Assembly (NCBI GenBank): GCA_022616615.1
Contig: JAKEER010000585.1
Location: forward strand, 1-46,164
Reading direction: 5' to 3'
Source of the DNA: Acidobacteriota bacterium
Lineage (GTDB): Bacteria > Acidobacteriota > Terriglobia > Versatilivoradales > Versatilivoraceae
Length of the DNA stretch: 46,164 nt
Within the stretch, counting starts at the first letter, position 1. Every line of letters starts with the position of its first letter. The notes under the pieces are model-generated. The model worked only from the letters and a program-made list of their open reading frames with translations, was not told the DNA's origin and did no database searches. Both the position numbers and the translations under genes were made by a program. Of this stretch, positions 14,027 to 17,480 are shown one piece after another.

Positions 14027-14737
14027 TCAATGCCCCTTTCCTGTTGGCACATCACCGTAGGCGTGCACACGTTCACAGATCCGCCGCAATACATCCTCAA
14101 CATCGCCGCCGGCATTGCGAAATGCCTTGGCGTCGATCGCCAGCGGTGCTCCAATCACGACCAAGGGCGCGCCGTATTTGGGCGTTTCAATAGCCTGTTC
14201 GATCGTGAGACCACCCACCGCCTGGACGGGCACCTTCACCGCATGAACAACGTCGCGCAACTGGTCCAGCGGACTGGGGAACGGCTTTCCTTGTTCCTTC
14301 AGCACGGTGCGCAAATCATAAGCGATGTGGTGGATGACATAATCGCAGCCGGCATCCTCGAGCAGGCGCGCGCCTGCGACCATATCGGACATGCCGAGAT
14401 TGTCGCCCATCACTTTGATCCCCAGATCTCTTCCCGCCCGCGCCACCAGCTCGACGGTCTCGCGGTGTGCCTGACCCATCACCACAACGAGATTCGCTCC
14501 GGCCTTGGCCATCAACTCGGCTTCGAGCCACCCGCCGTCCATCGTTTTGAGATCCGCTACAATCGGCGTCGTCGGAAACTCGGCGCGCAACGCTCTGACA
14601 CCGTTCATTCCCTCCGCAATGATGAGGGGTGTTCCAGCCTCGAGCCAATCCACACCGGCACGCATGGCCATGTGGGCGGTTTCAAGAGCTTCGGGGACGC
14701 TAGTGAGGTCAAGGGAAACCTGGACGATGGGTGTCAT
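14027..14737 (-). CDS. 3-hexulose-6-phosphate synthase / keto-gulonate-phosphate decarboxylase family enzyme
   Basis: Member of the orotidine-monophosphate-decarboxylase superfamily. The family active-site signature is seen at residues 61-69 (ADLKTMDGG, with D62, K64 and D67). Other barrel segments are VDWLEAGTPLI near residue 30 and VQAVGGLTIEQA near the C-terminus, the phosphate-binding GG. 236 residues fits a single (beta/alpha)8 domain. Close relatives either condense formaldehyde with ribulose 5-phosphate or decarboxylate 3-keto-L-gulonate 6-phosphate. The sequence alone does not decide, and no phosphohexuloisomerase lies nearby to support formaldehyde fixation. It is the first gene of a two-gene operon with the downstream dehydrogenase. 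A highly structured 133-nt segment ends 15 nt upstream of its ATG. Confidence 0.85.
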   Translation of the reverse strand: MTPIVQVSLDLTSVPEALETAHMAMRAGVDWLEAGTPLIIAEGMNGVRALRAEFPTTPIVADLKTMDGGWLEAELMAKAGANLVVVMGQAHRETVELVARAGRDLGIKVMGDNLGMSDMVAGARLLEDAGCDYVIHHIAYDLRTVLKEQGKPFPSPLDQLRDVVHAVKVPVQAVGGLTIEQAIETPKYGAPLVVIGAPLAIDAKAFRNAGGDVEDVLRRICERVHAYGDVPTGKGH

Positions 14738-14752
14738 GCGGGCACAAGAAAA

Positions 14753-14885
14753 GGGTGAGAGGCGTCACAATCAGATCAGGCGCTCCCGATGATCGGGATT
14801 AGAGATCCACTAAGTGGATATGTCCTGACGCCCCGGCACGCGGATCTGTAAAGCCGGTACTTGGACCAGTGCTCACCTCTCACCC
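14753..14885 (-). ncRNA. Candidate structured leader RNA (possible riboswitch)
   Basis: The segment is bounded by a perfect 10-bp inverted repeat, GGGTGAGAGG at 14753-14762 with CCTCTCACCC at 14876-14885. Read on the minus strand, it contains a CCGGC/GCCGG hairpin, then a 7-bp helix (GGCGTCA with TGACGCC, 14826-14832 and 14761-14767). That helix encloses two compact hairpins, ATCCAC-TTA-GTGGAT and CCCGA-TCA-TCGGG, and a further TCAGG/CCTGA pairing that would extend or compete with it. The whole forms a closed multi-branch structure ending 15 nt before the ATG of the synthase-like gene. I do not recognise a known riboswitch class. A short mobile repeat with terminal inverted repeats is the alternative, but I see no target-site duplication. 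Confidence 0.5.
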
Positions 14886-14964
14886 ATGATGAGAGACTAG
14901 CAAATTCGCGGCGAGTGTGAAAATAGAAAAATCATCAAGCCGGAGTGTCGGAACCGAGGATTTC

Positions 14965-15036
14965 TGTCAATCCAGCGAAAGCGGGAATTCAGGCTTTCCC
15001 GACTGATGGCTGGATTCCCGCTTCCGCGGGAATGAC
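14965..15036. repeat. Degenerate GTCATTCCCGC repeat, paired arms
   Basis: Left arm GTCAATCCAGCGAAAGCGGG and right arm CCCGCTTCCGCGGGAATGAC are diverged versions of the palindromic repeat seen at 4576-4624. Together they form an imperfect hairpin of about 70 bp. The stretch between the structured leader and the 58-codon ORF holds nothing else. Confidence 0.65.
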
Positions 15037-15108
15037 ACACAAGGGTTCTCAGAAGTCACCAGTTTTCCATGACCCCAGCTCGGGGGAGCTTGGTTAACGT
15101 GGCATGCT

Positions 15109-15394: not shown

Positions 15395-17392
15395 TCATCG
15401 CTGGCTCATCTCGTGCACGGCATCCACCAGTGCCAGCACATGATCCACCGGTGTCTCTGGAAGAATCCCGTGCCCCAGGTTGAAGATGTAGCCTGGCCGC
15501 CGCGCCGCCTTCTCCAGGAGTTGTCTGGCCTTCTCGCGGATCGTGGCAGGATCTGCAAAAAGGATCAGCGGATCGAGATTCCCCTGAATGCCTTTGTCAA
15601 AGCCGATCCGCGACCAGGCATCACCCAAGTCCACCCGCCAATCGACACCGATCACGTCTCCGCCCGCCTCGCGCACGAGTTCCAGGTAACTGCTCGTCCC
15701 CGTAGAAAAGTTGATCACCGGAACTCCCGGCTTCACTCCTTCGATCACCTGCCGCGTATGAGGGAGCACAAACTCTCGATAGTCGTCAGGACTCAGGCAG
15801 CCCACCCAACTATCGAAGAGTTGCAGTGCCTGGGCGCCTGCGGCAATCTGGCCGTTGAGATACTTCACCAGGCTGCGTGCAATGCTGGCCATCATGTCAT
15901 GCCACGCACTCGGTTCTCGATACATGAGCGCCTTCGTGTGCCGGTAATTTTTCGAAGCGCCGCCTTCAACAATGTACGACGCGAGCGTGAAGGGCGCTCC
16001 AGCAAAGCCAATCAAAGGAATATCCGGCCGCAGCCCGGCACGGGTCTTTCGAACGGCATCAAACACGTAGCTCAGCGACTCTTCGGGTTCGACTTCGCGC
16101 AGGCGGCCGACGTCTGCGTGGGTTCGAATCATTCCCTCGATCGACGGCCCGTCTCCCTTTTCGAAGCGCAGCCCCAGCCCCATGGGCTCCACAATCAGGA
16201 GAATGTCAGCAAAGATGATTGCCGCATCCACTCCCAACCGATGTGCCGCCGTCACAGCGACCTCTGCCGCAAGGTCTGAATTCTTGCAGAGATCCAAAAA
16301 GGAGTTCTTTGCGCGAATCTCTCGATACTCGGGCATGTAGCGTCCGGCTTGGCGCATCAGCCAGATGGGTGTGTAGTCTGCCGGCAACCGCCGGCAGGCG
16401 CGCATAAAGGCGCTCGATTCGAGCTTGTCCAGAAACTTTTCGTCAGCCTCAACACCAGACGCCTGCACGGACAGAGAGACTTCTACCCGGTGTCTGGCTC
16501 CAGACGTCCTCTTTCGGGCGAGCAACGCCTGTGCTTGATCGGCAGCTTCGGCGACAAGTTGTCCCATCTTGGGGTGCTGCGGCTCCAGATCAACGGAAAC
16601 ACCTAGTTCGCGCAGGGCCTGGCTGGAGAGCGGTCCCACCGAGGCCACCACGACACGCGACAAGGCTTCTCTGAGCCGCTCGGAAACACCCATCTGCACG
16701 GCTATCTGAAACAGATGGGACGCTTGCATCGCATTCGTAAACAGCGCCACTTCGCAGTTGCCCAGGATCACATTCTCAATCGCTTGCTTCAAAGGAGAGG
16801 TGTCTTCAGGCAGTGTCCAGCGGTAAACGGGAACCTGCAAGACCTCGGCGCCGCGTTTCCTGAGCCCCTGGATGAGTTCGCTATTGGGCACGCCATACTC
16901 CTGCACGGCCACAGTCAACCTATTCAAGGCAGGACATTGCTCACTCGCATCCAGCGTCTCCAGGAGCTCTCGCCACGTGTTCGGCTCAGGCACGGCCAAT
17001 GAAATAGGCACGCCGAAACTCCGCAGCGCGGCCACTGGTTTGGGTCCTCGCGCCACCACGGTCGAACCGCTCAGCGCGGCCACGATCTGCTCGCGGGGGT
17101 GGCGCGTTTCCATGACCTTGAAAAGCGCCCGGGTTCCCACGCCGGTGAGGAATATCACTACCCTCAGCTCGCCTCGCAGCAAACGATCCGCAAACTCGAA
17201 AGCGCTGACGTTTTGCTCTAGTGGCACTTCCGCCATCGAAGGGGCTACGAAGGGTTGGCCGCCATGGTTTGAAATGAGTCTTGCCATCTCATTAGCAAAA
17301 CGAGCCTCAAAGGCGGCGACGCGTAATCCACCAAAACCTTTGGTGCTTGAAACGGCTTCGGTGCTCTGATCGCCTGAAGATGCTGTGTTCAT
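15395..17392 (-). CDS. hemDE: Fused uroporphyrinogen-III synthase / uroporphyrinogen decarboxylase
   Basis: Two consecutive haem-pathway enzymes in one 665-residue chain. The N-terminal part, roughly residues 20-290, is HemD-like (LRVAAFEARFANEMARLI, VVIFLTGVGTRAL, LTVAVQEYGVPN, VALFTNAMQASHLF) and would cyclise hydroxymethylbilane to uroporphyrinogen III. After a linker rich in Ala, Ser and Glu, residues from about 315 to the end are HemE, with the signature WLMRQAGRYMPEYR, the substrate Asp in IIFADILLI, the Tyr in LASYIVEGG, and the C-terminal NLGHGILPETP. Both parts look complete, so this is a true fusion rather than read-through. ATG 17392 (MNTASS) is chosen over 17446 because AGGGGG lies about 8 nt ahead. 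A TATAAT lies about 90 bp upstream. Confidence 0.93.
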   Translation of the reverse strand: MNTASSGDQSTEAVSSTKGFGGLRVAAFEARFANEMARLISNHGGQPFVAPSMAEVPLEQNVSAFEFADRLLRGELRVVIFLTGVGTRALFKVMETRHPREQIVAALSGSTVVARGPKPVAALRSFGVPISLAVPEPNTWRELLETLDASEQCPALNRLTVAVQEYGVPNSELIQGLRKRGAEVLQVPVYRWTLPEDTSPLKQAIENVILGNCEVALFTNAMQASHLFQIAVQMGVSERLREALSRVVVASVGPLSSQALRELGVSVDLEPQHPKMGQLVAEAADQAQALLARKRTSGARHRVEVSLSVQASGVEADEKFLDKLESSAFMRACRRLPADYTPIWLMRQAGRYMPEYREIRAKNSFLDLCKNSDLAAEVAVTAAHRLGVDAAIIFADILLIVEPMGLGLRFEKGDGPSIEGMIRTHADVGRLREVEPEESLSYVFDAVRKTRAGLRPDIPLIGFAGAPFTLASYIVEGGASKNYRHTKALMYREPSAWHDMMASIARSLVKYLNGQIAAGAQALQLFDSWVGCLSPDDYREFVLPHTRQVIEGVKPGVPVINFSTGTSSYLELVREAGGDVIGVDWRVDLGDAWSRIGFDKGIQGNLDPLILFADPATIREKARQLLEKAARRPGYIFNLGHGILPETPVDHVLALVDAVHEMSQR

Positions 17393-17480
17393 CCAAGCCC
17401 CCTGTCGTGATGGCTGAAGATAACAGAAGGCGAAATCGGCAAGCAAGCTTGGTCCTTGGCTGGCTTACTGAGCATTGCGA

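Follow-up and report, generated by a model that had tools for sequence, protein, structure and literature searches.

A probable new family of free-standing, doubly pseudoknotted small RNAs in Acidobacteriota, one copy of which adjoins a hexulose-phosphate-synthase-like gene

Introduction

The catalogued RNAs closest in kind to the element reported here are Acido-1 (RF01686) and Acido-Lenti-1 (RF01687), two orphan structured RNAs of Acidobacteria that were judged not to be cis-regulatory (PMC2864571). The new RNA would likewise be an orphan structured RNA of Acidobacteria, but the covariance models of these two families give no match over it, and a true Acido-Lenti-1 RNA, which lies ~300 nt downstream of the new RNA at one locus (L101 of genome G055, positions 1146–1189), is a separate feature.

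Three other kinds of RNA are useful for comparison. Free-standing regulatory RNAs such as 6S RNA have, as the new RNA appears to have, their own promoter and terminator, a closing stem and probably an action in trans. The shape of 6S RNA is one long bulged hairpin, whereas the new RNA is a predicted multi-branched double pseudoknot, is patchy rather than universal and has no Rfam 6S match over it. Riboswitch-type leaders resemble it in being compact, pseudoknotted, ~130 nt long and endowed with a conserved internal loop, and the copy with which we started lies directly 5′ of a metabolic gene; unlike such leaders, the new RNA is bracketed by promoter and terminator signals, has no consistent downstream gene and is without Rfam match. 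Lastly, self-cleaving ribozymes with nested pseudoknots, such as the HDV-like, twister and glmS ribozymes, have a core in which a distant strand pairs both with the loop of a hairpin and with an internal loop, as would be the case here. The new RNA differs from self-cleaving ribozymes in that promoter and terminator signals bracket it, no Rfam match is found and no cleavage site was identified.

Results

Position, relatives and distribution

The element was detected in a stretch of DNA of 46,164 nucleotides, the whole of which is called the window below. It consists of about 133 bases, read on the minus strand from 14885 to 14753, and ends 15 nt 5′ of an ATG at 14737, as an earlier note on this sequence had stated.

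14753–14885, minus strand: whole small RNA, from P1 to P1′ (covariance models R1–R3; 22 other copies align full length)
14027–14737, minus strand: hexulose-phosphate-synthase (HPS)-like gene of the OMPdecase/HUMPS family, 15 nt downstream of the RNA

BLAST against 100 related genomes retrieved three relatives over the full length, 71–73% identical and from another family of the same class. Three rounds of covariance-model searches together with pattern searches eventually brought the total to 23 copies in 22 genomes, the window copy scoring 113–129 bits with models R1–R3. The carriers are 18 genomes from eight families of Acidobacteriota and four genomes bearing Verrucomicrobia or Akkermansia names (L020, L021, L024 and L089). 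In the families that were closely searched, the RNA occurs in 4 of 18 and 3 of 11 genomes, in 4 of 15 according to R2 (a further one was added by R3), and in 1 of 12 genomes of the window's own family. The filters of the large scans were more stringent and few candidates were scored in each genome, so that these incidence counts are lower bounds. The highest number of copies found in any genome is two (G625), and the RNA is single-copy in its own genome (G000), the other fragments picked up there (L002–L004; E 0.4–0.7) being at chance level. The assembly of that genome amounts to 9.6 Mb in 918 contigs, with an estimated contamination of 8%, and that of a congener to 5.4 Mb; given this size and contamination, the host assignment of the window carries some doubt. 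Within genus g20 (L120, L122 and L123), blocks of ~235–406 bp around the RNA are 84–90% identical although the flanking genes are not the same, which suggests that the block may have moved as a unit.

A viral origin was considered and rejected. The sole pattern match on a viral contig (L107) is inside a coding gene and covers the core only, with 14 bits, and is for these reasons attributed to chance; a second pattern search of viral contigs gave no match, nor did BLAST of the RNA element against plasmids and phages. Ten further pattern matches (L108–L112, L114–L117 and L119) were without real covariance-model match and were likewise discarded as chance.

Nothing in Rfam 15 lies over the element at curated thresholds, and no credible match appears at E values up to 10, which upholds the view of the earlier note that this is an unrecognised, multi-branched RNA of no catalogued class. 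Our literature search, which was incomplete, retrieved no published description, though a subscription journal may hold one. On sequence comparison, the element is a real structured RNA and appears to represent a new, uncatalogued family; we rate it as a new family of free-standing structured RNA, a kind already known.

A conserved fold with two pseudoknots

The minus strand was taken as the relevant transcript because the HPS-like gene, with its start at 14737, is on that strand. Compared with shuffled sequences, folding energies are mildly low on both strands (z = -2.15 for the minus and -1.85 for the plus strand) and unremarkable on their own; it is the comparative evidence, not the folding energy, that sets the element beyond chance. 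In the consensus pairs read on the minus strand, there are 19 G-U cells against 7 A-C cells. This bias, together with promoter and T-tract signals that occur on the minus side only (see below), shows that the sense strand is the minus strand. The parts of the predicted fold, all on the minus strand, are as follows.

14874–14885, minus strand: P1 closing helix, 5′ strand GGGUGAGAGGUG, paired with 14764–14753; every P1 model pair covaries
14753–14764, minus strand: P1 closing helix, 3′ strand CGCCUCUCACCC, partner of 14874–14885
14863–14866, minus strand: P2 5′ strand GUCC, paired with GGAC 14825–14822; two-sided changes in 4 of 4 pairs
14822–14825, minus strand: P2 3′ strand GGAC, partner of GUCC 14863–14866
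14858–14862, minus strand: conserved internal-loop strand AAGUA (consensus ~ARRUN; alignments A5 and A7)
14833–14857, minus strand: P3 hairpin CCGGC/GCCGG, 14857–14853 with 14837–14833; two-sided changes in 4 of 5 pairs
14843–14848, minus strand: PK1 5′ strand CAGAUC, part of the loop of P3, paired with 14777–14772
14772–14777, minus strand: PK1 3′ strand GAUCUG, before P1′, partner of CAGAUC 14848–14843
14829–14832, minus strand: pseudoknot T 5′ strand GGCG, in the P2–P3 internal loop, paired with CGCC 14782–14779
14779–14782, minus strand: pseudoknot T 3′ strand CGCC, after hairpin B, partner of GGCG 14832–14829
14805–14819, minus strand: hairpin A, AUCCAC UUA GUGGAU; two-sided changes in 6 of 6 pairs
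14784–14798, minus strand: hairpin B, UCCCGA UCA UCGGGA; UCC/GGA base near-invariant, two-sided changes in 3 of 5 model pairs

As judged by comparison of the copies, P1 encloses P2–P3, hairpin A and hairpin B, the whole being locked by the two pseudoknots. Compensatory changes run throughout the fold, as in a conserved structured RNA. In the 23-sequence alignment, which was fitted to the covariance model, 29 of the 32 nested pairs show two-sided changes and 96.1% of the cells pair, to be compared with 71% in shuffles and 38–46% when the partner strand is slid. A MAFFT alignment of four sequences, the window copy and the three relatives, conveys the same message, with two-sided changes at eight pairs. 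The pseudoknots were counted on segments assigned by hand, so that the following counts lean toward the proposed register. For PK1, two-sided changes affect all six pairs (examples are GAGACC/GGUCUC, GAGGUC/GGCCUC and UGGACC/GGUCCC) and none of 5000 shuffles was as good. Support is weaker for pseudoknot T: 90 of 92 cells pair, but only two of the four pairs have two-sided changes, with the compensated forms GGCA/UGCC (L135) and AGCG/CGCU (L147), and 58 of 5000 shuffles did as well. Besides the helices, conservation concerns the 5′ side of the P2–P3 internal loop, which reads roughly ARRUN, and a short U-rich stretch before P1′. The loops of hairpins A and B are not conserved and the P3 loop is taken up by PK1, leaving little single strand.

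Much of what the earlier note had read from the window alone reappears in this fold: the closing helix, perfect over 10 bp (14753–14762 with 14876–14885), the CCGGC/GCCGG hairpin and the two hairpins with 3-nt loops. The 7-bp GGCGTCA/TGACGCC helix that it had also proposed is complementary in the window and is not kept in the homologues, where GGCG pairs instead with CGCC in pseudoknot T; the alternative TCAGG/CCTGA pairing, too, joins complementary words of the window that the homologues do not keep. P2 and both pseudoknots, which are conserved, had been missed.

Promoter and terminator signals

Sequences flanking P1 on either side provide a candidate promoter and a candidate terminator.

14894–14921, minus strand: candidate sigma70-like promoter, TTCACA (14921–14916), 16 nt, TAGTCT (14899–14894)
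14745–14752, minus strand: candidate intrinsic terminator, a T-rich stretch TTTTCTTG immediately 3′ of P1

Taken alone, the window promoter is weak, with 8 matches out of 12, and 19% of shuffles are as good. A sigma70 scan just 5′ of P1 at 20 loci gave a summed score of 166, against 127.2 ± 4.3 (maximum 141) for shuffles that preserve base composition only, while the mirror position on the opposite strand was without signal (122 versus 123.5 for the shuffles). Textbook promoters are present at single loci, namely TTGAAA-N17-TATAAT (L130) and TTGAAA-N18-TATAAT (L128). The evidence for an own promoter is that of the 20 loci jointly; several are individually weak, the window included, and at some Verrucomicrobia loci no promoter was found by the scan. 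At the other end, the T content reaches 53% in the 12 nt at the P1 end of the 23 loci, against 19–27% (about 22%) further on, and a P1 helix followed by a T tract, as in an intrinsic terminator, is seen at the consensus level only. Both signals are supported statistically, and the anatomy is consistent with an independent, intrinsically terminated small-RNA gene.

Further upstream in the window, ~80 nt from the RNA, there is a 28-nt imperfect inverted repeat (TGTCAATCCAGCGAAAGCGGGAATTCAG / CTGGATTCCCGCTTCCGCGGGAATGACA, 14965–15037) resembling a REP-type palindrome; a weak, sub-threshold FtrB match falls over the same repeat. Beyond it, an ORF of 683 aa (15395–17446, minus strand) combines a uroporphyrinogen-III synthase domain (HEM4) and a uroporphyrinogen decarboxylase domain, an apparent HemD-HemE fusion.

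Neighbouring genes

The best matches of the HPS-like gene are hexulose-6-phosphate-synthase models, under their equivalog cut-offs. The RNA was found at none of 88 other HPS loci. In a congener (G001, same genus as the window genome; L009, upstream of position 1501), whose HPS is 91% identical, the leader retains a similar promoter-like stretch and a remnant of hairpin B without the core, an apparent case of decay of the RNA element. These two observations indicate that control of HPS is not the conserved feature, and the gene is probably a neighbour rather than a conserved target of the RNA.

Other copies adjoin other genes. The same amidohydrolase lies 41–59 nt downstream of the RNA in four genomes of one family, which indicates that the position of the RNA was inherited in that family; a glycosyltransferase is found 76 nt downstream in two congeners and glgC 87 nt downstream in one Verrucomicrobia genome. 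The remaining copies have convergent or distant genes. No pathway is common to the genes next to the RNA, as it would be for a one-pathway riboswitch.

Upstream of the RNA, single cases of a type I-G CRISPR Csb2 gene (L160, 4815–5684) and of a MazF-like toxin gene (L139, 5369–5701) were noted, and in one Verrucomicrobia genome a group II intron match above the Rfam threshold (L149, 28–128) ends ~140 nt before it. The Csb2 gene and the intron match are isolated cases. A retron, CRISPR or intron RNA was rejected after family searches of selected neighbours and a cross-locus comparison, which revealed no consistent partner gene.

Discussion

We consider that the element is most probably a self-contained, free-standing small-RNA gene of a new family, which happens to adjoin HPS in the window genome. 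A free-standing RNA is more likely than an HPS switch because relatives with the same fold adjoin unrelated genes. The earlier note had tied the fate of its riboswitch reading to two observations taken together, homologues scattered next to unrelated genes and an absence of compensatory changes: the scattering is what we find, while the absence of compensatory changes is strongly contradicted, and scattered neighbours combined with compensatory changes point to an RNA that stands by itself. Weighing against a small-RNA gene are the weak promoter of the window copy, the Verrucomicrobia loci that are promoterless by the scan and the patchy distribution.

What else could the element be? It could be a cis-acting riboswitch or attenuator, the fold sensing a metabolite and controlling read-through into the downstream gene, with P1 and the U tract as terminator. 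The compact pseudoknotted fold and its terminator-like end would suit this role, as would the short distances to HPS, the amidohydrolase, the glycosyltransferase and glgC. But at most loci the RNA is without close sense gene or faces a convergent one, no pathway recurs, HPS genes elsewhere are without the RNA (including that of the congener, which keeps HPS and has lost the core), and promoter and terminator signals of its own seem to flank the RNA; a riboswitch of the HPS operon, as the earlier note proposed, or any other cis switch, is thus distinctly unlikely as a general account. Cis action may occur in some lineages, since for about a third of the copies a sense gene follows within 90 nt, which in four genomes of one family is the same amidohydrolase. 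Another reading is a self-cleaving ribozyme scattered through intergenic regions, with which the double-pseudoknot core, the conserved internal loop and the sporadic occurrence without gene association would all agree; that the RNA is delimited exactly at P1 by promoter and terminator signals, and that the Rfam ribozymes give no match, makes it very unlikely.

A small terminal-repeat transposable element, the rival explanation of the earlier note, would account for the terminal inverted repeat, which is perfect in the window, and for contexts that differ even within one genus. We find this hardly credible: in contrast to a MITE-like element, the RNA is single-copy in its own genome and present at most twice in any genome found, its position was inherited in one family, and the arms differ between copies and yet covary, with the promoter outside them and the T tract after them. 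More in keeping with the flanking signals is a base-pairing (antisense) regulatory small RNA, as typical trans-acting sRNAs also have their own promoter and U-tract end, and the conserved U-rich stretch before P1′ could be added in its favour. However, with the loops of hairpins A and B unconserved and that of P3 engaged in PK1, little single strand would be left for a seed, and we regard this reading as unlikely.

As for the free-standing small-RNA gene, the statistics above support transcription that starts at a promoter of its own, immediately before P1, and stops at P1 and the U tract. The product would act in trans, its rigid fold serving to bind a protein or a small ligand. Since the conserved bases belong for the most part to helices or to the internal-loop core, we prefer protein or ligand binding to antisense action through a free seed, although we put the chances of such binding at slightly under even. 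In the window genome, read-through could make the RNA a 5′ leader of HPS as well, which would be incidental. A more speculative and rather doubtful view is that of a new functional RNA class, in the form of a self-cleaving ribozyme or of a ligand sensor acting in trans, with the ARRUN/GGCG internal loop locked by the two pseudoknots as an active core common to Acidobacteriota and Verrucomicrobiota.

Two phyla that are abundant in the environment would thus gain a well-supported RNA family whose fold is unusually intricate. Its 23 aligned sequences, its two pseudoknots and its defined ends allow direct tests for a protein partner, a ligand or self-cleavage.
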